This document shows positions 1-28,809 of a stretch of 37,188 nucleotides of DNA, in pieces. Source of the DNA: Chloroflexota bacterium (GTDB lineage Bacteria; Chloroflexota; Anaerolineae; Aggregatilineales; UBA3940); assembly GCA_010092885.1 (NCBI GenBank), contig JAADYX010000018.1, positions 1 to 37,188 on the forward strand, given 5' to 3'. Below the pieces are notes generated by a model that did not search any database, was not told where the DNA came from, and saw only the letters and a program-made list of their open reading frames with translations. Every line of letters begins with the position of its first letter. Position 1 is the first letter of the stretch. A program made the position numbers and the translations under genes.

Positions 1-205
1 AGCTGATATAGTCCATGCCTGTCCCACCATACGCCTCCGGGATCGGCCCGGCCAAAAAGCCGAGCTCGCCCATGCGTCTGACAAGATGAAGGGGGAATTC
101 GCCGGTGGCATCGGCTTCCCGCGCGATGGGGGCCACCTCCTCGTCGGCAAAACGGCGCGCGCGCGCTTCGACAGCCTGCTGCTCTAGGGTGAGCGCGAAG
201 TTCAT
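1..205 (-). CDS. Acyl-CoA dehydrogenase, N-terminal fragment (cut by window edge)
   Basis: The first 68 residues of a protein on the minus strand are visible; the rest lies beyond position 1. The N-terminus (MNFALTLEQQAV, then a segment with RRFADEEVAPIARE) and the later LGFLAGPIPEAYGG match the alpha-helical N-terminal domain of FAD-dependent acyl-CoA dehydrogenases. These enzymes oxidise acyl-CoA to enoyl-CoA and pass electrons to ETF. The ATG at 203-205 overlaps the stop codon of the Rid-family gene (ATGA), which fixes the start and makes it the last visible gene of the operon. In context it would oxidise an alicyclic or ring-cleaved acyl-CoA from the aromatic pathway, but the catalytic residues are outside the window. 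The family call is firm; the substrate is inference. Confidence 0.85.
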   Translation of the reverse strand, partial: MNFALTLEQQAVEARARRFADEEVAPIAREADATGEFPLHLVRRMGELGFLAGPIPEAYGGTGMDYIS

Positions 206-600
206 AGGACGGCTACCCCTTCCATTTCCACCAGTGCCCCATCCTGAAAAAGGCTGCTGACCTCAAACAGGGCCATGGCCGGATAGTAGTCACCGAAGTA
301 GGTCTTCATCAGGCTGCCAAGAGGCTTTAGGTGCTCACGGTAGAGTGCCCGGTCCGTAGTGTAGATGTTCAGCTTGACGATGTCGGTCATCTGGCCGCCT
401 GCGGCCTGCACCACGGCCTGCAGATTCTTGAGGACCTGTTCGTATTGGGCGAGCAGGTCGCCGTGCCCGATGATCCGGCCATCGGCGTCGCTGGCATCCT
501 GACCGGCCAGCCACAGGATGCGCCCGCCCTGTGTCACGATGCCATGGTTGAAGCCGCGCGGCTGCGGCAGTTGTGGCGGGGTGATGATGCTCTTTTCCAT
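202..600 (-). CDS. Rid-family (RidA/YjgF/YER057c) protein lacking the usual catalytic Arg
   Basis: A 132-residue protein of typical Rid-family length. RidA enzymes are trimers that hydrolyse reactive enamine/imine intermediates to ketones. The C-terminal signature is recognisable (YPAMALFEV, then VEMEGVAV). In RidA the equivalent stretch reads PARSxVEV, where the Arg binds the substrate carboxylate; here that position is Met. The protein therefore belongs to a Rid subgroup without that Arg, and imine deaminase activity cannot be assumed. I chose the ATG at 598-600, one base after the stop of the upstream hydratase gene; a TTG 15 bases earlier would add five residues. It overlaps the acyl-CoA dehydrogenase start. 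A Rid protein in an operon for an amino-aromatic CoA ester could remove an imine, but the substrate is unproven. Confidence 0.85.
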   Translation of the reverse strand: MEKSIITPPQLPQPRGFNHGIVTQGGRILWLAGQDASDADGRIIGHGDLLAQYEQVLKNLQAVVQAAGGQMTDIVKLNIYTTDRALYREHLKPLGSLMKTYFGDYYPAMALFEVSSLFQDGALVEMEGVAVL

Positions 601-601
601 A

Positions 602-1393
602 TCAGCGGCCCACAAACTTCGGTTTGGCCTTCTCTTTGAAGGCTTCGTAGAACAGCCGGTGATCCTCGCCCATCAGCATGAGGGCCTGCGCCTGCGCCTC
701 CGATTCAAGCGCGGATACGAGGTCCATGTTCCACTCGTTGTTGACCATGCGCTTGGTCATGGAAAGGGCGAGAGTCGGGCCGGCGGCAAGGCGCGCCGCC
801 CATTCCTGTGCGGCAGTGAGTAGATCCGCATGGGGTACAACTTTGTTCACCAGCCCGTAGCGCTCGGCGGTTTCCGCCTCGATGGTGCTGCCAAACATCA
901 ACAGCTCGAACGCGCGGCCCATACCCACAATGCGGGGCAGCAGATAGGCTGCGCTCATATCCGCGCCCGTCAGCCCGACTTTGGTGAACAGAAACGCGAA
1001 CTTGGCCTGCTCCGAAGCCACACGCAGATCCGCGGCCAGTGCGATCACTGATCCGGCCCCGGCAGCCATGCCATTCACCGCGGCGATAATGGGCTTATCC
1101 AGCTGGCGCATGTTGTGTACCACTGCACCCGTCATACGGGTGAAGGCTAGGTGCCCCTTGATGTCCTCATCCAACAGCGGTTCGATGATCTCAAACACAT
1201 CCCCGCCGGAGCAGAACGAGTCGCCCGCACCGGTGACGACTATCACCCGCACCGACTCATCGTAGCGCAGGTCTTCCAGCAGATCGCGGTACTGCGCGTA
1301 GATATCAAACGTCAGTGCGTTGAGCACCTCAGGCCGGTTGAAGGTCAGCGTTGCCACGCCCTCGGCCACATCGTAGTCAAAATCGTAGGTCAT
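602..1393 (-). CDS. Enoyl-CoA hydratase/isomerase (crotonase) family protein
   Basis: 263 residues, the normal size for a crotonase-fold enzyme. The oxyanion-hole region is present (SFCSGGDVFEI) and so is the second half of the active site (AAVNGMAAGAGSVIALAAD). The LPRIVGMGRAFELL segment is typical of the family. In the stretch between them (FLFTKVGLTGADMS) the usual PExxxG glutamate is not evident. The chemistry may thus be hydrolysis, ring opening or isomerisation rather than simple hydration. The ATG is preceded by AAGGAG at good spacing. It sits 15 bases after the SDR gene and ends one base before the Rid gene. Related enzymes occur in salicylyl-CoA, 2-aminobenzoyl-CoA and cyclohexane-carboxyl-CoA routes. 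The family is certain; the step is inferred. Confidence 0.88.
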   Translation of the reverse strand: MTYDFDYDVAEGVATLTFNRPEVLNALTFDIYAQYRDLLEDLRYDESVRVIVVTGAGDSFCSGGDVFEIIEPLLDEDIKGHLAFTRMTGAVVHNMRQLDKPIIAAVNGMAAGAGSVIALAADLRVASEQAKFAFLFTKVGLTGADMSAAYLLPRIVGMGRAFELLMFGSTIEAETAERYGLVNKVVPHADLLTAAQEWAARLAAGPTLALSMTKRMVNNEWNMDLVSALESEAQAQALMLMGEDHRLFYEAFKEKAKPKFVGR

Positions 1394-1408: not shown

Positions 1409-2185
1409 TCAATACATGATCGCGCCGCCATCGACGTTGATGGCCTGCCCTGTGATGCCGCGCGCGCCATGCCCGGCCAGCATCACCGCGACGGCGGCCA
1501 CTTCATCCGGCTCGATCAGGCGGTTCTGCGGGTTGCTTTTTTCCAGCGCGTGGCGGGCCTGCTGGCTGGTGCGGCCCGTCTTCTCCACGATGTTCTCAAT
1601 GGTGGCATCCGTCATGGAAGTGTCAACATATCCAGGGCAGATCGCGTTAACCGTGACATGCGGCGCGAATTCCACCGCGAGAGCACGTGTCAGGCCGAGC
1701 AGACCATGCTTGGCAGCCGTATATGCCGCGACGTACTTGCCGCCCGCCTTGCTCGCCAACGACGCGATATTGATGATCCGGCCATATTCCTGATCCAACA
1801 TGGCGGGTGCAAAAGCCTTGGTTATGTAGTAGGCGCTGTCCAGATTGATAGCGATCATCTGGTGCCACAGCGCGTCCGGGTGGCTGCGGAAGGGCGCACT
1901 CTTGCCGCTGCCTGCATTGTTGACCAGGATATCGAGGCCGCCCCACGCTGTCTCGATCTGTTCGTGCAGGGCGGCGATCTGGTCGGTATCGGTTACGTCA
2001 CAGGTGATGGCCATGCCATGGCCGCCTGCCGCCTCGATCTGCGCCAACGCGGCATCCAGATCGGGTTGGCGGCGCGCCGAGATCGCGACCCGTACGCCCT
2101 GTTCGGCCAGTGCCTGCGCGATGCTCAGGCCGATGCCTCGGCTGGCCCCTGTGACCAGTGCACGTTTGCCCACAAGTGATGTCAC
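1409..2185 (-). CDS. Short-chain dehydrogenase/reductase (SDR)
   Basis: 258 residues, a classical SDR. It has the N-terminal cofactor motif TGASRGIG, the NNAG motif, the catalytic Ser (NIASLASK) and the YxxxK pair (YTAAK). The C-terminal GQAINVDGG segment is the usual SDR ending. It would reduce a keto group or oxidise a hydroxyl group with NAD(P)(H), most likely a beta-hydroxyacyl/ketoacyl-CoA or cyclic ketone of the aromatic acyl-CoA pathway. The start is a GTG at 2183-2185, three bases after the stop of the monooxygenase gene, with GGAGC upstream in the end of that gene. The tight packing shows operon membership. The substrate cannot be read from sequence. Confidence 0.88.
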   Translation of the reverse strand: MTSLVGKRALVTGASRGIGLSIAQALAEQGVRVAISARRQPDLDAALAQIEAAGGHGMAITCDVTDTDQIAALHEQIETAWGGLDILVNNAGSGKSAPFRSHPDALWHQMIAINLDSAYYITKAFAPAMLDQEYGRIINIASLASKAGGKYVAAYTAAKHGLLGLTRALAVEFAPHVTVNAICPGYVDTSMTDATIENIVEKTGRTSQQARHALEKSNPQNRLIEPDEVAAVAVMLAGHGARGITGQAINVDGGAIMY

Positions 2186-2188
2186 CGG

Positions 2189-4303
2189 TTACAGCTCCAT
2201 CCGGCACAGGTCGGCGCGCCCGGCAGCCACCAGCGTGTTGACCTCACCACTGGTCCTTAGAAAGCCGCCCACCATCACAGGGATATCAACATCATGGCGC
2301 AGGATATCGGCGTAGGGTGTCAGGAAGCCCGGCCCAAACGCCGGATAGCCGCGCGGGGTGGTCTGCCCGACCAGCGGCTCGATGATGTCACAGCCACGTT
2401 CCTTAAGCGCCTGTCCTACTGCAACGGCTTCTTCCGCAGTGAGGCCGTTGTTCTGGCAGTCATCCATATTGAGCAGCACCCCGAGAGGTTTGTCCTGCGG
2501 CCAGGCCGCACGCACCGCCGCAAAGACCCCCAGTGGCCAGCGCATGCGGTTGGGCAGGTCCCCGCCGAACTCGTCCGTGCGATGGTTGCTCAGTGGGGAA
2601 AGGAAGCTCGCCAATAGATAGCCGTGTGCCATATGCAGGTGCAGCATATCGATCCCCGCTTCATCGGCCAGCTGTGCCGCACGCACAAACGCCGCCGTGA
2701 TCCGCTCGAAGTCGGCTGCTTCCATAGCCCGGGGGACGCTGCTGCGGGCATGGTACGGCAGGGCGGAGGGTGCGGTCAGTTCCCAGCCCCCATCCAGCAG
2801 GGGACGATCCAGCCCGGCGGCGCGCGGCTGCACCGCCCCGCGCCGTCCGGCGTGGTTCAGCACCAGCGCGAGTTTGCCTCCGGCCGTGTGCACCTGTTCA
2901 GCAGTTTGCGCCCACTGCTCGATATCCGCCTCATCGGTCAACGTCGGATCGTCTGGGGTGATGCGTCCCTCCGGCAGTACGGCGGTCGGCGCGCTGATCA
3001 GCAGGGCGGCCCCGGTCTGTTCGGCCTGATCAGCGAGCGTGACGGCAGCCCGGTTGTGCAGGTCCATACCGCGCAGCCGGAAGGCAGAGAACATCGGTGG
3101 GGGGGCCAGGGGCCCCCCAACATCCTGATTGCCAAACCACCGGTCGATGCGGTCCACATAATAGGGATCGCGCGTGCGCAGGTTGTCGTAATGGATGCGT
3201 CCGCTGCGTGTCAGCAGCTGGAATGTGAACTGCTGTGGCTCAAGGTGCGTATAGCGACTGGTGTTCTCAAAGTAGATCCGGCTGACCTGCGCCGCCTGCT
3301 GCAGGATATCCACGCGCGGACGGCGGTCGAGTTCATAGAGGTTTAGCGCAGTTTCCAAATCGTCAGCACTCTCGAAGGCCTGCGCCAGCGCAATGGCACC
3401 GTCCATGGCCAGCTTCGTGCCTGATCCGATGGAGAAATGGGCTGTGTGCGCTGCATCGCCGAGCAGCACAATATTCTGGTGCCGCCACGACCGGTTACGC
3501 ACCCGCAGGAAATTCCCCCACAGGGAGCGGTTGCTCAGGAGGCAGGCTCCGCCCAGGTAATCGGCAAACAGCGCCTCACAGTAGGCCAGGCTTTCTTCCT
3601 CTGTGGCCTGATCCAGGCCTGCTCGCCGCCAAACTTCTTCAGCTGTTTCCACAATGAAGGTGCTCATCGTGCCATCAAAGGGGTAGGCATGCACCTGGAA
3701 GAGGCCGTGCTCGTTCTCCTGAAAGATAAAGGTGAAAGCGTCCATCACCTTATCCGTGCCGAACCACACAAACTTCGCCTGTCCCTTTGTCAGCGAGGGC
3801 TTGAAGTGCGGTGCGAGCATTGTGCGGATACGACTGTTGACGCCATCGGCGGCAACCACCAGATCGTAGTCCGCCGGGTTCAAGTAGGTGATCGAGTCGA
3901 AGCCGGAGAGGTCAAGCTCGGCGGCAGCGCCCATATCCAGCACGATCTCATGCTCAAACTCAATCGGAATGCCCAACTCCCGGCAGCGCTCCTGCAGGAT
4001 GATCAGCAGCCGCTTGCGCGACATCCCCGCGAAATCGTGCCCATCGGCGCGGATGACCTCGCCGCGGTAGTAGGTATCGATGGCGGTCCAGTGTACGAAC
4101 TCGTCGGAGATGCGTTCGTATGTAGGAAAGTCGGCTTCCCGGAATGTGCTGATGGTTCGGTCAGAGAAGACCACACCCCAGCCGTAGGTTGCACCATCCG
4201 GGTTGCGCTCGTAGATCGCGATGTCCCAGTCGGGGTGGGCCTTCTTGAGCAGTATGGCTGTGTACAGCCCGCCGGGCCCGCCGCCGACGATCAGAATCTT
4301 CAT
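2189..4303 (-). CDS. Salicylyl-CoA 5-hydroxylase / 2-aminobenzoyl-CoA monooxygenase-type fusion with a reduced OYE-like domain
   Basis: 704 residues in two parts. Residues 1 to about 395 are an FAD-dependent aromatic hydroxylase: dinucleotide motif GGGPGG near residue 7, YGWGVVFSD near 40, the DG motif (VAADGVNSRI) and the GD motif (VLLGDAAHTAHF). Residues about 404-704 resemble the Old Yellow Enzyme (OYE) reductase half of 2-aminobenzoyl-CoA monooxygenase/reductase (HMAHGYLLASFLSP, then DEFGG). This half looks degenerate. The SPMAQYS-type segment after the first strand is missing, the usual Arg-Ile-Ser strand reads LLNM, and the chain stops at RADLCRMEL, where family members run on for several dozen residues. 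Hydroxylation of an aromatic CoA ester at C5 is likely; ring reduction by the second half is doubtful. The ATG at 4301-4303 has AGGA upstream and starts the FAD fold; a longer upstream reading would overlap the previous gene. Confidence 0.85.
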   Translation of the reverse strand: MKILIVGGGPGGLYTAILLKKAHPDWDIAIYERNPDGATYGWGVVFSDRTISTFREADFPTYERISDEFVHWTAIDTYYRGEVIRADGHDFAGMSRKRLLIILQERCRELGIPIEFEHEIVLDMGAAAELDLSGFDSITYLNPADYDLVVAADGVNSRIRTMLAPHFKPSLTKGQAKFVWFGTDKVMDAFTFIFQENEHGLFQVHAYPFDGTMSTFIVETAEEVWRRAGLDQATEEESLAYCEALFADYLGGACLLSNRSLWGNFLRVRNRSWRHQNIVLLGDAAHTAHFSIGSGTKLAMDGAIALAQAFESADDLETALNLYELDRRPRVDILQQAAQVSRIYFENTSRYTHLEPQQFTFQLLTRSGRIHYDNLRTRDPYYVDRIDRWFGNQDVGGPLAPPPMFSAFRLRGMDLHNRAAVTLADQAEQTGAALLISAPTAVLPEGRITPDDPTLTDEADIEQWAQTAEQVHTAGGKLALVLNHAGRRGAVQPRAAGLDRPLLDGGWELTAPSALPYHARSSVPRAMEAADFERITAAFVRAAQLADEAGIDMLHLHMAHGYLLASFLSPLSNHRTDEFGGDLPNRMRWPLGVFAAVRAAWPQDKPLGVLLNMDDCQNNGLTAEEAVAVGQALKERGCDIIEPLVGQTTPRGYPAFGPGFLTPYADILRHDVDIPVMVGGFLRTSGEVNTLVAAGRADLCRMEL

Positions 4304-4314
4304 TGCGGTGTCCT

Positions 4315-5160
4315 TTATCCTAGCACGTCGGCCAGACGTTCGAGCTGAGTGATATCCGATGAGGTCGGGAATAGAATCAACTGGTCGCAGCCCGCATCGC
4401 GATACCCGCGTATGAACTGTGTGATCGCCTGGGGTGTGGTCAGCAAGCCTGCCGCGATGCGCTCGGCAAAAGGCCCGGTGAAGTCGTAATAGTCCAGCAG
4501 GTACTGCGTCCCGGCATCCTGCACGGCCTGATCGCCCAGTGCGAAGTACCCCATGCCCCACAGCTGCGGCTCCCCGGGGCGACCCGCATCACGCCACGCC
4601 GACCGGGCCTGATCTGCCATGCGCTCGAAGATGCGCGGTGGCCCGCCGTTGTGCATGTAGCCATCGCCGAAGCGGGCAACACGCGCGAACGAAACGGTGC
4701 TCAACCCACCGATGAGCAGCTGCGGCCCCTGCGTACGCGGGGTAACTGGGCCCAGATGAGCACTCTCCCAGTGATCGCGCAGATCGGCAAGCTGCTGCGT
4801 CAGCCGCTTGCCGCGGATATGGTAATCGCTCTGCGTGATGTCGTAGTCGTCTTTGCGGGCCCCGACCGCCACACCGAGCGTGAACCGCCCGCCCGAGATC
4901 GAGTCAATGGTGGCGGCCGTTTTGCCCAGGATGGCCGTGTTGCGCAGCGGCGCGATCACGATCATCGTGGCCAGGTGGATGCGCTCCGTCACAGCGGCGG
5001 CAGCCGCCAACGTTGCCAGTGGATCAAAGCTGTCGTACAGTACCCGATCCAGCACGGCGGCAGTAGAAAAGGGACCCTTATCCGCGTGGGTGATCCATTG
5101 GAGCATCGTGGCCCCATCCAGCCCGGCGATGGTATTTGGTAGCCCAACCCCGATGTTCAT
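4315..5160 (-). CDS. LLM-class (luciferase-like) flavin-dependent oxidoreductase
   Basis: 281 residues with the luciferase-like TIM-barrel pattern. The N-terminal strand reads [10 protein letters not shown]. Further on come [12 protein letters not shown], then [15 protein letters not shown], which is the flavin/F420-binding segment of this class, and GPQLLIGG. Members use FMN or F420 for hydride transfer or monooxygenation. The ATG at 5158-5160 is preceded by AAGGAG and overlaps the stop of the CoA-transferase gene; its TAA is 11 bases before the monooxygenase start. Its position next to a monooxygenase with a degraded reductase half makes it a candidate for the missing reduction step, but this is inference. 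The cofactor cannot be decided from sequence. Confidence 0.85.
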
Positions 5161-6503
5161 GTGTGCACTCCTTCAGTAAACGGCGCTGCGGTCTTCGCCC
5201 GGACTTCGTCCAGGGTGGCGCCGGGCATCAGTTCGGTGAGGGTGAGCTGCCCACCGATGAACTCAAAGACCGCCAGCTCCGTGATGATCATATCCACAAC
5301 GCCCGTTGCGGTGAGCGGCAGGGTACATTCCGGTACGATCTTCGGGTCGCCGCGGCGGCTGGTATGTGTCATCGTAATGAGCAGCCGTTTGGCTCCCACC
5401 GCCAGATCCATCGCACCGCCGACGCCCAACAGCGGTTTGCCCGGCACCGCCCAGTTGGCCAGATTGGCGTGACTGTCAACCTGCAAACCGCCCATCACGG
5501 CGACATCCACGTGCCCGCCCCGGATCATGGCGAACGAGTCTGTGCTGTCGAAGTAGCTGCTGCCCGGCAGCGCTGTCACCGGGATCTTGCCCGCATTGAC
5601 CGGATAGTCCATGGCGCCGCCATCCTGTGGCGAGGGGCCGAAGCCCAGCATGCCGTTTTCCGTATGCAGGATGATGCCATGGTCCGGCGTGATCAGGTCG
5701 GCGATCAGGGTTGGGATGCCGATGCCAAGGTTTACCAGATCGCCAGGGTGCAGTTCCTGCAAAGCGCGCCGTGCAATGCCCAGCCTTATGCCGCTCGCAT
5801 CCGTGGGTGGGCTCACTGAGGCCGACGACCCGAGATCGTCAAGGGTCGTGTGAGCCTGCACCAGGTAGTCGACATAGATGCCCGGCGTATGGATGTGATC
5901 CGGGTCCAGGTCGCCGAGGGGCACAATGGTCTCCACTTCCGCGATCACCAGATCGGCGGCCAGTGCCATGGCCTTGTTGAAGTTTTGTTCGGTGCGCTGG
6001 TAAACCAGATTGCCTGCCGTGTCAGCCTGCCGGGCACGGATAAAGGCCACATCGGCGCGCAGGGCAGGGATGAAGACGTGTGGCTGTCCGTCAATCTCGC
6101 GGATCTCCGAGCCTTCGGCGATGACCGTGCCTGCCGCTGTGGGCGTGTAGAACCCGCCTATCCCTGCGCCACCCGCCCGGATCGCCTCCGCGAAGGAGCC
6201 CTGCGGCATCAGCTGGACATCCAGGTTGCCGTCAAGAGCGGCCTGTGCCGCTTCCGGATTGGAGGTGAAGTACGACCCGATCGCCTTTTTGATCTGCCCA
6301 TTGCGCAGCAGCCTTCCACCGCCCAAACCCGGTTCCCCGACATTGTTGCCGATGTAGGTCAGGCCGCCGGTTTGGGTTTGTGCCAGAGCGTGCAGCAGAT
6401 GTACCGGGTTGCCGGTCATACCGAAGCCACCGGCCATTAGGACGGCACCTTCGGGTACCAGCTGCGCTGCTTGTTCAGGACTTATCTGTGGAACGCGTTT
6501 CAT
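5157..6503 (-). CDS. Fused alpha-beta CoA-transferase (3-oxoacid/3-oxoadipate CoA-transferase type)
   Basis: 448 residues carrying both halves of a family I CoA-transferase in one chain. The alpha-like half (about 1-225) has the [15 protein letters not shown] start and the [16 protein letters not shown] loop. The beta-like half (about 240-448) has [11 protein letters not shown] and the catalytic Glu in [10 protein letters not shown]. Bacterial enzymes of this type are usually two subunits, so fusion is notable. It would move CoA between an acyl-CoA and a carboxylic acid through a glutamyl-CoA thioester. As first gene of the operon it may activate the aromatic acid or act on a ring-cleavage product. 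I chose the ATG at 6501-6503, where family similarity begins. An in-frame ATG at 6546-6548 would add 15 residues but lies inside the operator. Confidence 0.87.
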
Positions 6504-6545
6504 CACATCTATCTGTTGGTGGAGGATGTTCGGCGGGTATGCATA

Positions 6546-6597
6546 CATACCGACCGGTAGGTATGTTCATGATACACACAAAAAGATGGCTTGTCAA
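6546..6597 (-). promoter_or_regulatory. Promoter with overlapping repressor-type operator, aromatic operon
   Basis: On the minus strand TTGACA (6592-6597) and TATCAT (6569-6574) are separated by 17 bases, a near-consensus housekeeping promoter. At the expected start of transcription lies a 20-base near-palindrome (6546-6565, core TACCGACCGGTAGGTA) with 9 of 10 base pairs matching. ACCGACCGGT-type dyads are common operators of TetR-family repressors of acyl-CoA catabolism. The location would block transcription, so induction by a pathway CoA ester is likely. No regulator gene is in the window. Confidence 0.75.
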
Positions 6598-19409: not shown

Positions 19410-21653
19410 ATGACTACGCGGCCAGGCAGAAGGCAGCGCATCCGGGTAACGGGTGTCGTACAGGGGGTCGGATTCCGCCCATTTGTATATGGCATCGCGC
19501 TGCGCTTCGGGCTGGCTGGCCACGTCGGTAATGACAGCGGCGGGGTCTTCATCGAAGTCGAAGGCCCCGCCGACAACCTCAATTCCTTTGTCGAGGCGCT
19601 GCGCTCTGAGCCGCCCCCGTTGGCCCATGTTGAGCGGATCACCGTTGAAGAGATGCAAACACGCGGCGATGATGATTTTGTCATTGTGCACAGTGAGGCA
19701 CACCCGCAGCGCGCCACCCTGATCTCACCTGACCTGTGCACATGCGACGACTGCCTGCGTGAACTCACTGATCCGGCTGACCGGCGCTACCGCTATGCGT
19801 TTATCAACTGCACCAACTGCGGTCCGCGCTACACGATCATCCAGGACATCCCCTATGATCGCCCGCTGACGACCATGGCCGCCTTCCCAATGTGCCCGAC
19901 CTGCCAGGCCGAATATGACGATCCGTTGGACCGCCGCTTCCACGCTCAGCCGAACGCTTGCCCTGACTGCGGGCCGCAGATCTGGCTGGAAGAGGCCGGG
20001 GTCCGGCTGGCAGGCGATGCCATCGCAGCAGCCCAGCGCATCATCGCCGACGGGGGGATCGTGGCCATCAAGGGATTGGGCGGATTCCATCTGGCCTGTG
20101 ATGCTGCCAATGATAATGCAGTGGCCCGGCTGCGCGAACGCAAGCACCGACCGGCCAAACCGTTCGCCCTGATGGCCCCAAGCGTGCAACAGGTCCGCAC
20201 TTTCGCCCACCTAGATCCGGCGGAAGAAGCAGCCCTGACGAGCCGCGAGCGCCCAATACTGCTGCTGCGCAAACACGAACCAAACACGCTCTCAGCTCGC
20301 ATCGCCCCTGGGAATGCAACCATCGGGGTGATGCTGCCCTACACACCGCTGCACTTTTTGCTCGTCACAGACAGGCCCTTCGTGATGACCTCCGGCAATA
20401 TCTCCGGCGAGCCTATCGTCACGGACAATGACGACGCGCGCCTTAAACTGGGTGGTCTGGCGGATGCCTTCCTGATGCACAACCGCGCTATTCACACACC
20501 CTGCGACGACAGCGTCATCCGCCGGTTCCAAGGCGTGGATCTGCCCGTGCGCCGGTCGCGCGGGTACGCTCCCTTCCCGATCCGGCTGCCGCTGGCCGCA
20601 CCGCCCCTGTTGGCCACCGGCGGCGAACTCAAGGCGACGTTCTGCCTGGCAGAAGGCGAAAAGGCTTTCATGAGCCAGCATATTGGGGATATGGCCAACC
20701 TCAGCACGTTGGATGCCTTCACTCACGCAGCGGACCATATGGCCCGATTGTTCCGCATCGAACCCGAAGCGATCATCACCGACAGCCATCCGGGGTATCT
20801 CTCCAACCGGTGGGCCCACGAGCAGAGCACCTCCTTGGTTGAAGTGCAGCATCATCACGCCCACATCGCTGCCGTGATGGCCGAACACAGCCACCCAAAC
20901 GAACCGGTGATCGGCTTCGCTTTTGATGGCACGGGCTATGGTACCGACGGCACCATCTGGGGTGGCGAGGTCCTTATCGCGGACTACGGCACGTTTGAGC
21001 GTGCCGCATACCTCAAACCGGTGCCGCTGGCCGGGGGTGATGTCTCGGTGCAACGGCCATACCGGCTGGCGATGTCCCATCTATACGCCGCGGGGTTGGA
21101 TTGGGACATCCCCACGCTCGCCATCTGCCCGCCTGAAGAGCGCCAGATCCTCGAACGCCAGTTCACGATTGGCCTGAACACAGTCCCAACCAGCAGCATG
21201 GGCCGCCTGTTTGATGCGGTTTCCGCCCTGGCCGGAGTCTGCCAGCACGCCACCTATGAGGCACAGGCCGCCATTGAACTGGAGTCAATCGCGGCGCACG
21301 ACGTGCATAAGGGCTACTCCTTCGCGTTGGATGGCGCCGTTATCGATCCCGCCCCCGTGATTGCTGCCATAGTCACGGATTTGAACGCGGGCGCGCCCGC
21401 GCCGGTGATCGCCGCGAAGTTCCATAATGCGGTCGCCGCGATGATCGCGCGGGTGGCCGCGCACCTACGCGATATTCACGGAGTGCACACTGTTGCCTTC
21501 AGCGGCGGCGTCTTCCAGAACACCCTGCTGTTGGAAAAAACACGCCCTCATCTCACCGATTTCAACGTACTCACGCATCGCCTGGTGCCACCCAACGACG
21601 GCGGGCTTGCCCTCGGGCAGGCAGCCATCGGGTCGCACCGGCTGACCCGCTAA
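19410..21653 (+). CDS. hypF: Hydrogenase maturation carbamoyltransferase HypF
   Basis: 747 residues, full length. The acylphosphatase domain is at the N-terminus (VVQGVGFRPFVYG, then GHVGNDSGG) with its Arg and Asn. Two zinc-finger pairs follow (CTCDDCL, CTNCGPRY, CPTCQAEY, CPDCGPQ). A YrdC-like domain then covers about 200-380 and a Kae1-like domain covers the rest (HHHAHIAAVMAEH, GFAFDGTGYG). HypF makes carbamoyl-AMP from carbamoyl phosphate and ATP and transfers the carbamoyl group to the C-terminal Cys of HypE, the first step in making the cyanide ligands of the NiFe centre. It starts one base after the GTPase gene and is followed by hypC after 12 bases. Confidence 0.95.
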   Translation: MTTRPGRRQRIRVTGVVQGVGFRPFVYGIALRFGLAGHVGNDSGGVFIEVEGPADNLNSFVEALRSEPPPLAHVERITVEEMQTRGDDDFVIVHSEAHPQRATLISPDLCTCDDCLRELTDPADRRYRYAFINCTNCGPRYTIIQDIPYDRPLTTMAAFPMCPTCQAEYDDPLDRRFHAQPNACPDCGPQIWLEEAGVRLAGDAIAAAQRIIADGGIVAIKGLGGFHLACDAANDNAVARLRERKHRPAKPFALMAPSVQQVRTFAHLDPAEEAALTSRERPILLLRKHEPNTLSARIAPGNATIGVMLPYTPLHFLLVTDRPFVMTSGNISGEPIVTDNDDARLKLGGLADAFLMHNRAIHTPCDDSVIRRFQGVDLPVRRSRGYAPFPIRLPLAAPPLLATGGELKATFCLAEGEKAFMSQHIGDMANLSTLDAFTHAADHMARLFRIEPEAIITDSHPGYLSNRWAHEQSTSLVEVQHHHAHIAAVMAEHSHPNEPVIGFAFDGTGYGTDGTIWGGEVLIADYGTFERAAYLKPVPLAGGDVSVQRPYRLAMSHLYAAGLDWDIPTLAICPPEERQILERQFTIGLNTVPTSSMGRLFDAVSALAGVCQHATYEAQAAIELESIAAHDVHKGYSFALDGAVIDPAPVIAAIVTDLNAGAPAPVIAAKFHNAVAAMIARVAAHLRDIHGVHTVAFSGGVFQNTLLLEKTRPHLTDFNVLTHRLVPPNDGGLALGQAAIGSHRLTR

Positions 21654-21665
21654 TGGAGGTTCATT

Positions 21666-21929
21666 ATGTGCCTGGGCATACCCGGAAAAGTTACCGAGAT
21701 CTACGAACAACAGGGCATCACCATGGGCAAGGTCGATTTTGGCGGCATCCAAAAGGAGATCTGCCTGGCTTATGTACCTGAGATCGAAGTTGGCGAATAC
21801 ACCATCGTGCACGTGGGGTTCGCCATCACCCGTCTGGATGAAGAGTCCGCCATGGAAACGCTCGCCCTGATTGATGAGCTGGGCATATTGGAAGAGGAAT
21901 TGGGTGTCCCCGATGAAGTATCTGACTGA
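21666..21929 (+). CDS. hypC: Hydrogenase assembly chaperone HypC
   Basis: 87 residues. The N-terminus MCLGIPGKV carries the essential Cys2 that holds the Fe(CN)2CO unit, and the protein has the small OB-like fold of HypC/HupF. HypC forms a complex with HypD and later with the large-subunit precursor to deliver the iron centre. The tail is longer and more acidic than the minimal HypC ([17 protein letters not shown]). The ATG follows a GGAGG site; the gene overlaps hypD by 17 bases, so translation is coupled. Only one HypC copy is seen, consistent with serving one hydrogenase. Confidence 0.93.
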
Positions 21930-23016
21930 GTTCCGTGACCCGGAGAAAGCCCGCATCCTGTTCGATGAGATCGCCAACATCACAACCCGTCCGTGGGCCA
22001 TCATGGAAACCTGCGGCGGCCAGACGCACTCCATAATCCGCAACGGGATCGACCAGCTGCTCCCCGATAAGATCGAGCTGATCCACGGGCCCGGCTGCCC
22101 GGTCTGCGTCACCTCCCTGGAAATGATCGACCGGGCGCTGGCCATCGCCGCCGAACCGGGCGTGATCTTCTGCTCCTTCGGCGATATGCTGCGCGTGCCC
22201 GGCAGCGGCAAGGATCTGTTCACGATCAAGAGCGAAGGCGGCGATGTCCGCATCGTCTACTCTCCGCTGGATGCTGTCCGCATGGCACAGCAAAACCCGG
22301 ACCGGCAGGTGGTGTTCTTTGGCATTGGGTTTGAGACAACCGCCCCGGCCAATGCGATGGCGGTCCACCAGGCCAAACAGCTTGGTCTGGCAAACTTCTC
22401 CATGTTGGTCTCGCATGTGCTGGTTCCACCTGCTATTGAGGCGATCATGCAGTCGCCAACCAACCGTGTGCAGGGCTTTCTGGCGGCGGGGCATGTGTGC
22501 AGCGTGATGGGCACCTGGCAGTACGAACCCCTCGCTGAACGCTACAATGTGCCCATCGTGATCACCGGCTTTGAGCCGCTTGACATCCTCGATGGCATCC
22601 GCCGGTGTGTGATTCAGCTGGAGGCGGGCCGCACTGAAGTCGACAATGCGTATGCTCGCGCCGTGCAGGAGAAAGGCAATTTGCCCGCGCAGCAGCTGCT
22701 GGCAGAGGTTTTCGTGCCGGCAGACCGCAAATGGCGCGGCATCGGCCAGATCCCGCAGAGCGGGTGGCGGCTCTCCGATGCCTACGCCGAGTTCGATGCG
22801 GAACGCCGCTTCGATGTCGGCGGCATTGTCACACAGGAGTCCGCGGTGTGCCGCAGTGGTGATGTGCTGCGCGGTCAGATCAAGCCACACGAGTGCCCGG
22901 CCTTTGGCAAGGAATGCACACCGCGCAGCCCGTTGGGTGCAACGATGGTCTCCAGCGAGGGAGCCTGCGCCGCCTACTACCAGTACGGACGTTTTGCCAC
23001 GCTGGAGCAGGCATGA
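21913..23016 (+). CDS. hypD: Hydrogenase maturation scaffold HypD
   Basis: 367 residues, typical length. Key motifs are METCGGQTH, with the Cys that helps hold iron, GPGCPVCVT with a redox pair, GFETTAP, and a C-terminal set of Cys that binds a [4Fe-4S] cluster ([27 protein letters not shown]). HypD with HypC receives the iron and its CN and CO ligands. The start is the ATG at 21913 inside hypC; an ATG 42 bases upstream would add residues with no family similarity. The stop TGA overlaps the hypE start. Confidence 0.95.
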
Positions 23017-24068
23017 GCGATCTCGACTTTGAGGGATGGACCTGCCCGCTGCCGCTGCGCGACCATCCGAACATCATCCTTGGGCACGGGGGCGGAGGCA
23101 AACTCTCCGCTGAACTGGTTGAGCATCTCTTCCTGCCCGCCTTCCAAAACGAGCACCTTGCCAGCCTCGGCGACTCCACCGTGCTCGATCTCGGCGGGCA
23201 GCGGCTGGCCTTCTCGACCGACTCCTTTGTGGTGCAGCCGCTGTTCTTCCCGGGGGGCAGCATCGGCGATCTGGCCGTGCATGGCACCGTCAATGATGTG
23301 GCAATGAGCGGTGCACAGCCTCTCTACCTGAGCGCGGGCTTCATCGTGGAAGAGGGGCTGCCCCTCGCAACCCTCGGCGGGATTGTCACCCGGATGGGGG
23401 AGGCCGCGCGTGCGGCAGGGGTGATGCTCGTCACGGGGGATACCAAAGTCGTCGACCGGGGCCATGGTGATGGTGTCTACATCAACACCAGCGGACTCGG
23501 CCTCATCCCGGAAGGGGTGCATGTTGCCGCCCACCGCGCAAGCCCGGGCGATGCCGTCTTGGTGAGTGGCACCCTCGGCGATCATGGCATGGCGGTGATG
23601 AGTGTCCGTGAAGGGCTGGAATTCGAAACGGTGATCGAGTCGGACTCGGCACCGCTCAACGGCCTTGTCGCCGATCTGCTGGCCGCCGTGCCCGATGTGC
23701 ACACCCTGCGCGACCCAACACGCGGCGGCGTGGCCTCCGCCCTCAATGAGATCGCACGGGCGGCGGGTGTTGGCATTCTGCTGGAAGAACGGCATCTCCC
23801 CGTCAAACCGGCGGTGCAGGCCGCCTGTGAACTGCTCGGCATGGATCCGCTGTACGTAGCCAATGAGGGCAAACTCATCGCGATTCTGCCCGGCGAGCAC
23901 GCCGATGCAGCCTTGGCCGCCATGCAAGCACACCCCCTCGGTTCAGACGCCAGGTTGATCGGTCATGTCACCGAAGCGCACCCCGGCATTCTGGCCGTGC
24001 GTACTGCCTTCGGTGCGACGCGCGTCGTTGATATGCAGGTCGGTGAACAGCTGCCCCGGATCTGCTAG
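23013..24068 (+). CDS. hypE: Hydrogenase maturation protein HypE
   Basis: 351 residues of the PurM-like ATP-binding fold. The ATP-binding Gly-rich stretch (LGHGGGGK near 23-30), [13 protein letters not shown] and GDTKVV are present. The chain ends in PRIC, and the terminal Cys is the one carbamoylated by HypF and dehydrated to thiocyanate, the donor of the cyanide ligands. The ATG at 23013 overlaps the hypD stop (ATGA). It is the last gene of the plus-strand unit and meets the protease gene tail to tail; the two stop codons share the palindrome CTAG. Confidence 0.95.
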
Positions 24069-24499
24069 CCCTCCACCAGACGGGTGATATGCGCCAGCAG
24101 ATCAGGAAGGGCGGCTTCAACACGTGCGGAGAGAGGTGCACCCAGGTCAAAGTGGGTGGTTAGCAGACCCGTCAACATCACAGCCGGATAATGCTGATAC
24201 AGCTCCTGCGTGACGGCCAGCAGCAGCCCCGGCGTCAGATGGTGCAGCAAGGGCGGCATGGTCCGTGTGGGCTGCACCTGCTGCGTGTAGATCTGCCCTG
24301 CAGGGGAGCCGTCGCGGGCATCAACCAGCACTACACGATTGTAGCCCACCAGGCGAAGTGCCAGATCCGGCGTGAGCTGGTGGAAGCACCACAGATCGGC
24401 TGCTAAAGCACGCTGAGTGAGGTGATCAATAACCACCTCACCCAGCCGGTCGTCACCGCGTATGGGGTTGCCATACCCGATGATCAGTGTCTCAGCCAC
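24065..24499 (-). CDS. [NiFe]-hydrogenase maturation endopeptidase (HyaD/HycI type)
   Basis: 144 residues. The N-terminus (LIIGYGNPIRGDDRLG) matches the GxGNxxxGDDxxG signature in which Glu/Asp residues bind the nickel of the immature large subunit. LVDARDG follows in the right place, and a His within LLTTHFDLGA is a candidate third ligand. The enzyme removes the C-terminal tail of HoxH after nickel is inserted. It starts with GTG at 24497-24499, overlapping the end of hoxH by eight bases, with GAGG upstream. It is the last gene of the hox operon, which makes HoxH its natural substrate. Confidence 0.9.
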   Translation of the reverse strand: MAETLIIGYGNPIRGDDRLGEVVIDHLTQRALAADLWCFHQLTPDLALRLVGYNRVVLVDARDGSPAGQIYTQQVQPTRTMPPLLHHLTPGLLLAVTQELYQHYPAVMLTGLLTTHFDLGAPLSARVEAALPDLLAHITRLVEG

Positions 24500-25910
24500 G
24501 CAGCGCCTCTTCGATCACAGCACCTGCCGGATCGAGCAGCTGCACCCGCAGCGGGATCTGCGCGCTGGCATGGGTTGAGCAGCTCAGGCAGGGGTCAAAC
24601 GTACGGATGACCGCCTCCACCCGGTTGAGCATACCCTCAGAGAGGTTTTCCCCATCGATGTAGCGGCGCGCGACTTGCAGCACACCGCGGTTCATGGCCA
24701 GGTTGTTATGCGTCGTTGCGACTACAAGGTTGCCGCCGGTAACTACCCCCTGCTCATCGACCTCATAGTGATGGATCAGGGTGCCGCGCGGCGCTTCTGT
24801 CACACCGATGCCCTCGCTGACATTCGCCGATGCGTGTGCTCTGACGCGCGGATTGAGGATGCTCGGCTTGTCCAGCAGGTCCTCGATGCGCTCCACCGCG
24901 TGCAGGCACTCAATGAGCCGCGCATAGTGGAAGTAGAAGGAGCTCAGATGGTTCAGGCCGCGGTATTCGGCCAGTTCTTGATCGGCTTCCGGTGTGCCCA
25001 TTTTACCGATCACGTTAAGCCGGGCCAAGGGACCCACACGGTAGATCCCATCCGGATAGCCCATCGGTTTATAGTATGGTGACTTGAGATAGCTGTCCGG
25101 TTCAACCGCCTCCCCGATGTAGTCTTGATACTCGGTGCGATGGAAATCCGCCAGGATCTCGCGGCGTGTCGAGTCGACAACACGCAGCCGCCCACGGTAC
25201 AGTTCCAGCACATCCTCACGCTCGTCGACCAACGTCATGAACAGCGTGGGGAAGTTGGCAAACACACGCGCCTCTTCGTGATAGTCCGCCATGGCGCGCT
25301 TGAACCAGTCCAGCGAACGGCGCACCAGCGCTTTGATCTCCGGCAGTTCTGCCAGGATTGTCTCACGGACACCCGCGTCAAGCGGTTCGCTGACACCGCC
25401 TGCCACGATCCATGTCGGGTGAATGCGCCGCCCTGCCATGCGTTCGATGATCTTCTGCCCGAAGCTGCGCAGCCGCACACCATCACGCACGATCTCGGGG
25501 TGCGTTTCCAACAGGCCGAAGATGCTGCGCTTGGCCACATCGGACTCCATCCCGAGCAGAAAATCCGGGGAGGAGAGGTAGAAGAAGCTCAACGCATGGG
25601 ATTGGAGCAGCGAGGCATAGTTCACAATCCGGCGTAGATCGGCGGCAGTACCCTCCACACGCACGGACATGATCGCCTCGCACGCCTGCGCGGCGGCCAA
25701 CTCATGGCTGATCGTGCAGATGCCACAGATACGCCCCATGATGCCGGGCAGTTCGTAGAACGGACGTCCCTCGATAAACTTCTCAAAACCACGATATTGG
25801 GTCACGTGGAAGCGGGCATCCGCCACACTGCCATCCTCACCCAGTTGAATGGTGATTTTGGAATGGCCTTCGATGCGGGTGACCGGATCGATGGTAATCG
25901 TTTGAGTCAT
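24492..25910 (-). CDS. hoxH: NAD-linked [NiFe]-hydrogenase large subunit HoxH
   Basis: 472 residues. The first nickel motif is RICGIC (60-65) and the second is DPCLSCSTH (439-447), giving the four Cys that hold the NiFe site. The 25 residues after His447 are the tail that the maturation protease removes. The sequence TIDPVTRIEGHSKI at the N-terminus and the overall length fit group 3 hydrogenases of the bidirectional HoxH type. The partner is HoxY, 13 bases upstream, and electrons flow to NAD through HoxE/F/U. The ATG at 25908-25910 has GGAGG eight bases upstream. All metal ligands are present, so an active enzyme is expected. Confidence 0.93.
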   Translation of the reverse strand: MTQTITIDPVTRIEGHSKITIQLGEDGSVADARFHVTQYRGFEKFIEGRPFYELPGIMGRICGICTISHELAAAQACEAIMSVRVEGTAADLRRIVNYASLLQSHALSFFYLSSPDFLLGMESDVAKRSIFGLLETHPEIVRDGVRLRSFGQKIIERMAGRRIHPTWIVAGGVSEPLDAGVRETILAELPEIKALVRRSLDWFKRAMADYHEEARVFANFPTLFMTLVDEREDVLELYRGRLRVVDSTRREILADFHRTEYQDYIGEAVEPDSYLKSPYYKPMGYPDGIYRVGPLARLNVIGKMGTPEADQELAEYRGLNHLSSFYFHYARLIECLHAVERIEDLLDKPSILNPRVRAHASANVSEGIGVTEAPRGTLIHHYEVDEQGVVTGGNLVVATTHNNLAMNRGVLQVARRYIDGENLSEGMLNRVEAVIRTFDPCLSCSTHASAQIPLRVQLLDPAGAVIEEALRG

Positions 25911-25923
25911 GGGTTCTGCCTCC

Positions 25924-26460
25924 TCAAGCACCGGGGCGTGTTTTGTCGTTGAGCTTGGGTTTGCGACCGGCCAGCAGCTCGGTGATCACGAAGTAGATGA
26001 CATCGGCTGAAGGTGGGCACCCCTGCATAAAGATATCCACCGGCACGATCTCATGGATCGGGCGTACCACCGGCAGCAGCCTCGGTATGATAGAGTCCGG
26101 CACCTGCTGCCCGGCTGTGGCCGTCTCGATGTAGCCCGTCTCAAGGATCGCGTCCGTGCCAAATGGATTGCGCATCGTCGGGATGTTGCCTGCTACCGCA
26201 CAGTCGCCCAGCGCGATCAGCGTAGTGGTGTGCTCGCGGATCTTGCGGATCTTGTTGAGGTCATCCTCACTGCTCACGGCCCCTTCAACAAGTGCGATAT
26301 CCACATGCTCGGGATAGTCCTTGCGATCGACCAGCGGCGTGTAGACAAATTCCACATGCTCGGCCAGCTCGATCAGGCGTTCATCCATATCAAAGATGGA
26401 CATGTGACAGCCTGAGCAGCCGTCCAACCAAACAGTGGCCACGCTTACTTTCTCACTCAT
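25924..26460 (-). CDS. hoxY: Hydrogenase small subunit HoxY
   Basis: 178 residues, the short type of small subunit found in HoxY and in F420-linked enzymes. Cys ligands for the single proximal [4Fe-4S] cluster are visible in DGCSGCHMS (near 14-19), LGDCAVAG and QGCPPSAD. The larger subunits of uptake hydrogenases have extra cluster motifs that are missing here, as expected. It passes electrons between HoxH and the HoxU module. Its start overlaps the end of hoxU by eight bases, so translation is coupled. No twin-arginine signal is present, so the enzyme is cytoplasmic. Confidence 0.92.
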
Positions 26461-27178
26461 TGTTGTTAACCCCTCGCATCTTCGTCAGGTACCCGAGGAA
26501 TTCCCGCCGCTTGATCATCTCACCAGCAGGCTTTCCTTTTTCCACTATGGCACCTGTCGGGCATACGTTCATGCACTTGCCGCAGCTTGTGCACGTTCGT
26601 GAATCACCCCAGGGTATATCCAGGTCGGTGATCAGGTGTGATTTATAGCCGCGTCCTTCCACATCCCAGGTGTGCGCGCCTTCGATCTCGTCACAGACGC
26701 GGACACACCGTGTACACAGGATGCACCGGTTGTGGTCCATCACGAACCGCTCATGGGACATATCCACTGTGCGGTCCGGGTTCAGATACGGATAGCGAAC
26801 GTAGTCCATGCCCAGTTTGGTCGCCAAATACTGCAACGAACAATTGCCGTTGGAAACGCACACTGAGCAAACATGGTTGCCCTCGGCAAACAGCATCTCT
26901 ATGATCATGCGTCGGTAGTTCTGCAGCCGCTCGGAATTTGTGACGACCTCCATGCCTTCTTCAACATACGTTGCACAGGCAGGCACCAATTTGTTCCACC
27001 CAACGACTTCCACCAGACACAGGCGGCAGGCCCCTATGATTGACAGGCCATCCAACTGGCACAGTGTCGGAATGTCGATATCGTTCTGACGGGCAATCTC
27101 CAGGATAGTCTCCGACTCGTGGCCGCTGACGTCCTGTCCGTCCATCGTGAATGTCTTTACCCTTGATCGGACTGGCAT
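26453..27178 (-). CDS. hoxU: Hydrogenase diaphorase iron-sulfur subunit HoxU
   Basis: 241 residues, equal to the N-terminal part of NuoG. The [2Fe-2S] ferredoxin domain has Cys at LCQLDG, GACRLC and VPACAT. Next comes the His-Cys cluster region ([13 protein letters not shown]), then two [4Fe-4S] motifs ([13 protein letters not shown] and [12 protein letters not shown]). It carries electrons between HoxF and HoxY. The ATG at 27176-27178 follows GGAGG. The gene lies 11 bases after hoxF. All cluster Cys are intact. Confidence 0.93.
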
Positions 27179-27189
27179 ATCATCTCCTC

Positions 27190-28809
27190 CTAGTCAGCTG
27201 CCGCTTCGACATCAGTCAGCAGAGACAGGTACTCGTCTTCAAAGAAGTGCAGTGTGCTCAGCACCGGGTTCGGGGCCGATTGGCCCAGGCCACACAGGCT
27301 GGTGTGTTGGGTCACATCGCACAGTTCGCGCAGCAGCTGCAGATCCCGGTAGGTGCCCACACCGCTTTCGATGCGTCCCAGCAGATCGTACATCTGCTTG
27401 GTACCCACCCGGCAGGGGATGCACTTGCCGCACGACTCAGTCATGGAGAATTCCATGAAGAACCGCGCGACCTCGAGCATGGAGGCGGTGTCGTCCATCA
27501 CGATCATGCCGCCGGATCCCATCATGGAACCGACCTCACGCAGCGATTCGAAGTCTACCGGCAGGTCAAGCATATGCTCTGGAATGCAGCCACCTGAGGG
27601 GCCGCCGGTTTGCACAGCTTTGACGGCCCGGCCATCCGGTGCGCCGCCGCCGATATCATAGACGATCTCGCGCAGCGTAATGCCCATCGGCACCTCAATC
27701 AGGCCAGTGTTGTTGACCTGTCCGGTCAGCGCGAAAACCTTTGTTCCCTTGCTGCTCTCCGTTCCGAAGCTGGCATACCAGTCACTGCCATTGCGAATGA
27801 TAGGCGCGATGTTGGCCAGCGTTTCAACGTTGTTGATGAGGGTGGGTTCACCCCACAGGCCGTAGTCAGCCGGGTAGGGCGGGCGAGGACGCGGCTGGCC
27901 GCGCTTCCCTTCAATCGAAGCGATCAGGGCGGTTTCCTCACCACAGACAAACGCACCCGCACCCAGCCGGATCTCGATGCTGAAGTTGAACGGCGTGCCG
28001 AGGATTTCATTGCCCAGTAGATTTTCACGCTTGGCCCGCCGGATAGCTTTGTTCAACCGGTCAATAGCCAGCGGGTATTCAGCGCGCACATAGATGTGAC
28101 CCTTGCTCGCCCCCACAGCGAAAGCAGCGATGGTCATGCCTTCCAGGATGCGATACGGGTCGCTTTCCAGCACACTGCGATCCATAAATGCCCCGGGGTC
28201 GCCCTCGTCGGCATTGCAGATCACATACTTGGTATCGCTCTCAGCTTTGGCCACTGTGGACCACTTCAACCCGGTGGGGTAACCTCCACCACCGCGCCCA
28301 CGTAAGCCACTGTTTGTTATCTCTTGGATGATCTCATCAGGAGACATTTCAGTGAGGGCGATGTTCAGCGCTTTGTACCCATCGTGCACCAGGTAATCCT
28401 CCAGGCTTTCGGGGTCAACCGAGCCCGCATTCTCCAAAACGATGCGCGTCTGCCGGTCGAAGAATTGGCTGTACTCGGGCTCATACAGCGGTTCATAGGG
28501 TTCCCCAGTCTTGGCCGCTTCGACCAATGCCTCAGCATCCTCCGGTCTGACTTCGCTGTAGTGCTGACCAGCGGGCTTAACCGTAACATGCGGGCCAGTG
28601 GCACAAAGGCCCATACAGCCCACGCACTTCACATTGACCTTTTCTTCGAGTTCCTGCTCCTTGACCAGATCGGCCAGGCGGTCGGCGAGCTGGTCGGCAT
28701 TCTGGGACGCACAGCCAGAAGCAAGACAGACCCACATCTCGTTCTCAAACTGGGCCTGGCGATCGTGCTCTGTCTCAGCCATCCCCTGAAGTGTGTCGTA
28801 GATCGTCAT
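27190..28809 (-). CDS. hoxF: Hydrogenase NADH-binding diaphorase subunit HoxF
   Basis: 539 residues. The N-terminal thioredoxin-like domain has [2Fe-2S] Cys (CLASGCAS, then CVGCMGLC). The FMN/NADH domain follows with [13 protein letters not shown] and [14 protein letters not shown], matching NuoF. The C-terminal [4Fe-4S] ligands are CGKCIPC and the Cys in [10 protein letters not shown]. It exchanges electrons with NAD+/NADH, which makes the enzyme a soluble bidirectional hydrogenase. Its ATG overlaps the hoxE stop (ATGA); an alternative ATG nine codons later lacks this coupling. Confidence 0.94.

Follow-up and report, generated by a model that had tools for sequence, protein, structure and literature searches.

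The closest described counterparts of the protein analysed here are the 2-aminobenzoyl-CoA monooxygenase/reductases (ACMR) of Azoarcus evansii and, as a relative, of Arthrobacter pAL1 (locus L122), which share with it the fused layout, the FAD half and a neighbourhood of CoA-ester genes. The FMN half of the intact enzyme reduces 5-hydroxyanthraniloyl-CoA to 2-amino-5-oxocyclohex-1-ene-1-carbonyl-CoA (PMC3534580, PMC4539516). Parts of the locus resemble other known proteins as well. The reductase half has the barrel fold and the HGY motif of the YqjM-like Old Yellow Enzymes (OYEs) but is devoid of their FMN contacts, helix alpha1 and C-terminal segment. The F420-dependent luciferase-like hydride transferases (FGD, Adf, Mer, Fht) have the fold of the LLM-class oxidoreductase that is encoded next to the hydroxylase. 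Among solved structures, VioD, the violacein FAD hydroxylase, is nearest to the FAD half in both sequence and fold, but it differs from the protein studied here in being a stand-alone enzyme whose substrate is no CoA ester.

The window, i.e. the whole stretch of DNA that was analysed, comprises 37,188 nucleotides of contig JAADYX010000018.1 from a Chloroflexota bacterium (assembly GCA_010092885.1). Judged by its sequence, the protein encoded at 2189-4303 is a relative of ACMR, a likeness that is based on the pAL1 relative (43.9% identity over 100% of the query) and not on the Azoarcus sequence. Unlike ACMR, however, its reductase half has no FMN contacts, its C-terminus is truncated and an LLM gene lies beside it. 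We consider it likely that this enzyme acts as a monooxygenase on 2-aminobenzoyl-CoA (anthraniloyl-CoA), that its OYE reductase has become a folded but non-catalytic pseudo-domain, and that the ring is reduced by the adjacent LLM protein. In the open-licence PMC literature, judged by titles and the beginnings of abstracts, we found no description of such a pseudo-OYE plus LLM architecture, no paper that linked 2-aminobenzoyl-CoA with F420 and none that linked the old yellow enzyme with a pseudoenzyme.

Domain organization of the hydroxylase

The hydroxylase gene begins with an ATG at 4303 and its stop codon ends at 2189. The mechanically derived open reading frame opens earlier, with a GTG at 4561, and homologues align from the ATG. 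FAD_binding_3 (PF01494) was matched by residues 2-331 of the 704-aa protein and Oxidored_FMN (PF00724) by residues 426-700, the latter with 135.9 bits, above the gathering cut-off of 27. The PF00724 match was restricted to positions 44-319 of the 342 in the profile, so that the OYE domain is incomplete at either end. The best curated family of the protein was NF006101 (bifunctional salicylyl-CoA 5-hydroxylase/oxidoreductase), but the score of 805.8 bits was below the cut-off of 1078 and the match covered positions 1-716 of 768, so that about 50 positions at the end of the profile were missing. The original prediction had described the FAD half as intact, and the PF01494 match, the similarity to VioD (3c4a, E 1.3e-53) and the presence of all invariant residues and FAD motifs bear this out. 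The features of the locus are listed in Table 1.

Table 1. Features of the hydroxylase locus, in window coordinates.
Feature	Position	Strand	Extent or basis
FAD monooxygenase fused to a putatively FMN-less pseudo-OYE	2189..4303	-	704 aa
Intact FAD hydroxylase half, VioD-like	3194..4303	-	about residues 1-370; PF01494, VioD 3c4a, invariant residues, fold search
Pseudo-OYE half, predicted barrel kept, FMN contacts lost	2192..3106	-	about residues 400-704
Site at which the first FMN strand and helix alpha1 have been lost	3014..3040	-	about residues 422-430; alignments, model
VLLNM in place of VRISA (FMN Arg lost)	2465..2479	-	alignment, contact scoring
C-terminal truncation point GRADLCRMEL, common to the clade	2189..2221	-	alignments
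LLM-class oxidoreductase, candidate for the missing reductase	4315..5160	-	281 aa; PF00296; 11 bases upstream of the hydroxylase gene
SDR family dehydrogenase	1409..2185	-	Pfam/curated families; conserved neighbour
Enoyl-CoA hydratase (ECH) family protein	602..1393	-	NF006107, above cut-off
RidA-family protein	202..600	-	PF01042
First part of an acyl-CoA dehydrogenase gene that runs off the contig	1..205	-	PF02771
Fused A/B subunits of a 3-oxoacid-type CoA-transferase	5157..6548	-	Pfam/curated families

Loss of the FMN site in the OYE half

The original prediction had pointed to three lesions in the OYE half, namely the absence of the first cofactor-contact segment, LLNM in place of the Arg-Ile-Ser strand and an early stop at RADLCRMEL, and alignment to intact relatives confirmed each of them. 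The SPMxxYS strand that contacts FMN in intact relatives was replaced and the helix following it was gone, so that the stretch from NR to GA(A/G)L measured about 12 residues in the window protein as compared to 30 in intact relatives (counted by eye). VRISAHDW of the intact relatives was changed to VLLNMDDC, and the chain ended with GRADLCRMEL, without the (A/G)R-PHL-DPYW segment that provides the last FMN contacts. In addition, we uncovered a change that had been missed before: the FMN-contacting Gln (LQLGHAG in intact forms) was replaced by Val (LVLNHAG). None of the four scored FMN contacts was present in the window protein, whereas the substrate motif HxxHGYLL was retained.

The AlphaFold2 model of the protein (pLDDT 90.9) contained all eight predicted barrel strands, and a Foldseek search matched its OYE half with OYE structures at an rmsd of about 2. 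At the same time, strands 1 and 2 of the model (residues 419-422 and 434-441) were joined without a helix, and nothing followed strand 8. Contact scoring, the residue table and the model support the proposal, made earlier as a likelihood, that canonical FMN binding has been lost from the OYE half, and they indicate that a folded barrel remains.

Distribution of the degenerate OYE half

Relatives were gathered from the phylum of the window (400 genomes, 55 of them with a match), from its class (298 genomes, 22 with a match), a GTDB contig set (11 loci added), haloarchaeal and other plasmids (the best 40 of 161 matching records, 11 of which were inspected) and 398 genomes of Pseudomonadota (77 with a match, best 30 places taken). 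The four FMN contacts scored were the first-strand Met, the Gln, the Arg of VRIS and the C-terminal Arg. Before counting, we dropped L049-L051, which come from genomes identical to those of L003-L005, and the cut or frameshifted L013.2, L066.2, L064, L098, L037 and L057, three of which (L037, L057 and L064) have an adjacent LLM gene. Among the resulting 118 aligned rows, 105 had an OYE half; 69 of these kept all four contacts, 36 kept at most two and none kept three. The remaining rows carried another C-terminal domain (7) or were counted as FAD halves alone (6). L075 was placed among the latter for its in-frame stop; an OYE-like frame of 324 aa follows this stop and an LLM gene precedes the gene. 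The degenerate form was found at none of the 29 Pseudomonadota loci, the best places among the 77 matching genomes, all of which were intact (the thirtieth, L147, is the same place as L008 and was counted there, as intact).

The tree of the FAD halves (112 rows, quick method, SH-aLRT) placed 26 degenerate rows together with L075 in one main group (support 94), within which an inner group of 22, including the window protein, had a support of 99. A second degenerate group of six (L078, L080, L095-L097 and L100) was likewise supported at 99, and a single clade for both groups was rejected (p-AU 4.6e-70 under the stated model, with long branches present). The main group spans Chloroflexota, including Ktedonobacter, and haloarchaea, with a common end point of the chain; it has thus crossed the domains of life. 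L080, L095, L096, L097 and L100 carry further shrunken OYE remnants (about 100-220 aligned positions) behind the same FAD half and have no adjacent LLM gene.

In the 23 aligned rows of the main degenerate clade the strand-5 Arg was kept in 2 and the Gln in 9, while HGY of the substrate motif was kept in 22-23. The HAGRRG stretch and many other positions persisted in these rows despite the wholesale loss of the FMN contacts. It is the retention of HGY, along with the barrel predicted to be intact, that would speak for an OYE half which binds FMN in an altered way and is still a reductase, leaving some other task to the LLM protein. However, given the near disappearance of Arg, the scarcity of Gln and the complete lack of scored contacts in the window protein, we regard this as very unlikely.

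A recent pseudogene or frameshift in one genome was rejected as the cause of the degeneration by the clade-wide pattern and by dN/dS values well below 1. Nothing points to a frameshift: the stop codon ends 3 bases before the SDR start codon (2185), and the truncation recurs across the clade. The assembly is fragmented (431 contigs), which might raise the suspicion of an assembly error, but the identical truncation at many other loci, including those on haloarchaeal plasmids, together with the low dN/dS values, leaves either kind of artefact practically no probability. The term "degraded" in the original prediction therefore describes the missing FMN contacts correctly, but what it describes is a conserved trait of a clade and not the decay of one copy.

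Association with an adjacent LLM gene

The 281-aa protein encoded immediately upstream of the hydroxylase matched PF00296 with 103.4 bits, and its model (pLDDT 93.7) had a luciferase-like barrel fold. It had been proposed as a possibility that the window protein is a hydroxylase with a structural remnant and that the reduction has moved to this neighbour. We counted LLM genes, detected with an HMM of LLM proteins, that lay within 300 bases and on the same strand; a locus entered the count if 400 or more bases were available upstream. An LLM gene was adjacent at 25 of 32 degenerate loci but at only 1 of 63 intact loci, at none of the 7 with the fused F420-type domain described below and at 1 of the 6 "alone" loci. 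Close relatives with this arrangement range from soil-dwelling bacteria to haloarchaea. With fewer than 400 bases upstream, the degenerate L058, L059, L065 and L128 and the intact L076, L083, L085, L094, L142 and L170 were outside the 32 and 63. Without haloarchaea the counts were 22 of 28 degenerate loci versus 1 of 25 intact loci of the phylum. Fisher's test gave p 1.4e-15 (2.3e-8 within the phylum), values that ignore relatedness and are descriptive only. The counts are non-independent events. Within the main clade both traits largely go back to a single origin, and a test on independent pairs found 2 pairs only and had no power.

The LLM gene was also directly upstream in the best 7 haloarchaeal plasmid matches, that is, in 7 of the 8 haloarchaeal records when Halostagnicola (L121), with no adjacent LLM gene at its hydroxylase locus, is included. 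L078, a member of the second degenerate group, has an LLM gene directly downstream, which represents a separate pairing. The degenerate loci at which no adjacent LLM gene was found were L066 (a broken gene), L080, L095, L096, L097, L100 and L121; at L097 one lies 5.6 kb away on the opposite strand. When the search was reversed, LLM proteins of at least 53% identity, a line drawn after viewing the list, occurred at 24 places in the 400 genomes of the phylum (source genome excluded), and 21 of these were directly beside a hydroxylase gene. The other three were on contigs without a listed hydroxylase (G314 and G199) or 12 kb from a shrunken form (G254). The counts of adjacency, the haloarchaeal records and the separate pairing in L078 all support the proposed takeover, and the LLM partner probably performs the lost reductase job. 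The system would offer a clear case of a bifunctional flavoenzyme in which one catalytic domain has become inactive while keeping its fold, its place apparently being taken by an unrelated enzyme from the adjacent gene. Why the two activities are fused is a question that the paired genes open to direct reconstitution.

L067, the one intact locus with an adjacent LLM gene, has an intact OYE form with a divergent LLM gene directly upstream, and groups with L056 near the degenerate branch. It is a possible intermediate.

Replacement of the OYE half by an F420-type domain

In seven genomes of the window's class (L134 and L136-L141) the FAD half was followed, in place of the OYE half, by a fused domain of some 134 aa. 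The two copies scanned passed TIGR03618 (F420-dependent PPOX class; FDOR) with 92.4 and 87.9 against a cut-off of 79.05. SDR, ECH and RidA genes were mostly nearby at these loci, and LLM genes at none. No separate FDOR gene was found near the stand-alone FAD halves. A like pathway context was therefore seen with a fused FMN reductase, with a separate LLM protein and with a fused F420-type reductase, so these alternative architectures of the FAD hydroxylase are still extant in nature. This comparison provides the strongest argument for our reading, in which the pathway requires a reductive step and the LLM protein carries it out.

Cofactor of the LLM protein

TIGR03619, an F420-type family, was the best curated family of all five LLM proteins scanned. 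However, the LLM protein of the window scored below its cut-off (123.9 versus 166.9 bits), as it did for every curated family; the LLM proteins of L118, L003 and L078 were also below the TIGR03619 cut-off and that of L067 was above. In the fold search FMN monooxygenases (luciferase, MsuD, RutA) tied with F420 enzymes, with a VIA Z of 29.6 for luciferase 8cbb and 29.5 for FGD1 3c8n (rmsd 2.6 for both, with 280 and 276 aligned, respectively). In the source genome, CofD and CofE were above cut-off and close together on a single contig (G000:C322:14939-17263), whereas CofG and CofH were not found in this assembly (92.8% complete, 431 contigs). CofE was above cut-off in 28 of 31 main-degenerate genomes, 6 of 7 FDOR genomes and 32 of the 36 other genomes, grouped by hand and with five genomes with shrunken forms (L080, L095-L097, L100) among the 36. 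As a discriminator of architectures CofE was rejected, being also common in Chloroflexota with the intact form. Outside the phylum, eight genomes with the intact form gave one match above cut-off, one partial match and none in six. In one haloarchaeal cluster npdG and cofH are near the hydroxylase gene.

The division of labour could be the same with reduced FMN instead of F420H2 in the LLM protein. The tie in the fold search, the score below the F420 subfamily cut-off and the failure to find CofG and CofH would fit this. We nevertheless regard it as rather unlikely, considering that TIGR03619 was the best family throughout and was passed by L067, that the OYE half has given way to a fused F420-type PPOX domain in another branch, that CofE is present in most main-degenerate genomes and that npdG and cofH accompany the gene in a haloarchaeon. 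F420 is a plausible, if weakly supported, cofactor of the LLM protein. A review lists a precedent, in which the picrate reductase Fht transfers hydride from F420H2 to a nitroaromatic ring (PMC8498797). If the cofactor assignment is true, an F420 catabolic route would be added in bacteria and haloarchaea, and the annotation "bifunctional oxidoreductase" of the degenerate proteins would be wrong about half of the molecule. We tentatively suggest, and hold it as somewhat short of an even chance, that anthranilate catabolism exchanged FMN/NADH for F420H2 in ring reduction on more than one occasion (through LLM proteins in the main clade and in L078, and through the fused PPOX domain), with the pseudo-OYE half serving as a platform on which the LLM protein docks and receives hydroxyanthraniloyl-CoA.

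Selection on the pseudo-OYE half

Twelve close pairs from the main clade gave dN/dS values of 0.095-0.335 for the pseudo-OYE half. That of the FAD half, computable in 11 pairs, was 0.037-0.164 and below the OYE half every time. By comparison, the OYE half of five computable intact pairs had 0.071-0.159, about level with the FAD half; four intact Pseudomonadota pairs were non-computable and left out, and three other single values were saturated. These values indicate that the pseudo-OYE half is constrained, yet less than an intact OYE half. Purifying selection on the remnant implies that it probably still has a non-catalytic role, which may lie in keeping a dimer together, in orienting the FAD half or in passing on the product.

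Gene neighbourhood and proposed pathway

The hydroxylase gene of the window is clustered with RidA, ECH, SDR and acyl-CoA dehydrogenase genes, and a RidA gene was present in 18 of the 25 LLM-adjacent loci (hand count). The RidA-family protein is expected to hydrolyse enamines or imines. Kynureninase, whose product can be anthranilate, was encoded near 4 of the 7 FDOR-fused loci, the degenerate L119 and the intact L131 and L155. The RidA, ECH and SDR genes together with kynureninase at some loci thus point to anthranilate. No anthranilate-CoA ligase was seen among the window ORFs scanned, the contig ending at base 1, and the best match in the source genome to a haloarchaeal benzoate-CoA ligase had 36% identity and was on another contig.

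Alternatively, the protein could simply be a hydroxylase like salicylyl-CoA 5-hydroxylase, with no ring reduction and with the LLM protein as a monooxygenase of a later step such as ring opening. The name of the best NCBIfam model would agree with this, though the score is below cut-off, as would the frequency of monooxygenases among the solved LLM relatives and the occurrence of FAD halves on their own and of strongly shrunken forms that lack an LLM gene. However, the frequent RidA genes and occasional kynureninase argue for an amino substrate, and the alternative fused partner belongs to a reductase-type PPOX family that is no oxygenase, which makes a purely oxygenative route improbable.

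For the preferred reading, a 2-aminobenzoyl-CoA monooxygenase with an LLM reductase, we infer a scheme that concerns the substrate and product as well as the activity and cofactor of the LLM protein. The FAD half would hydroxylate the ring of 2-aminobenzoyl-CoA with NAD(P)H and O2, expectedly at C5, and the upstream LLM protein, which by the same inference may dock on the pseudo-domain, would deliver a hydride to 5-hydroxyanthraniloyl-CoA, probably from F420H2. RidA could then hydrolyse the enamine, and SDR, ECH, acyl-CoA dehydrogenase and CoA-transferase would complete a breakdown resembling beta-oxidation.

Some further genes were observed. In the haloarchaeal clusters of L118, L119 and L178 a trpB-like gene lies near RidA, SDR and ECH, and next to several intact Chloroflexota loci there is a weaker match of the trpB type. 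Elsewhere in the window, positions 19410-28809 probably hold a [NiFe]-hydrogenase cluster together with a maturation gene: HypF is encoded at 19410-21653, the large subunit of a nickel-dependent hydrogenase at 24492-25931 and a flavoprotein of the Nuo51 type at 27190-28809. A cytochrome P450 (PF00067, 240 bits) is encoded at 35029-36432.
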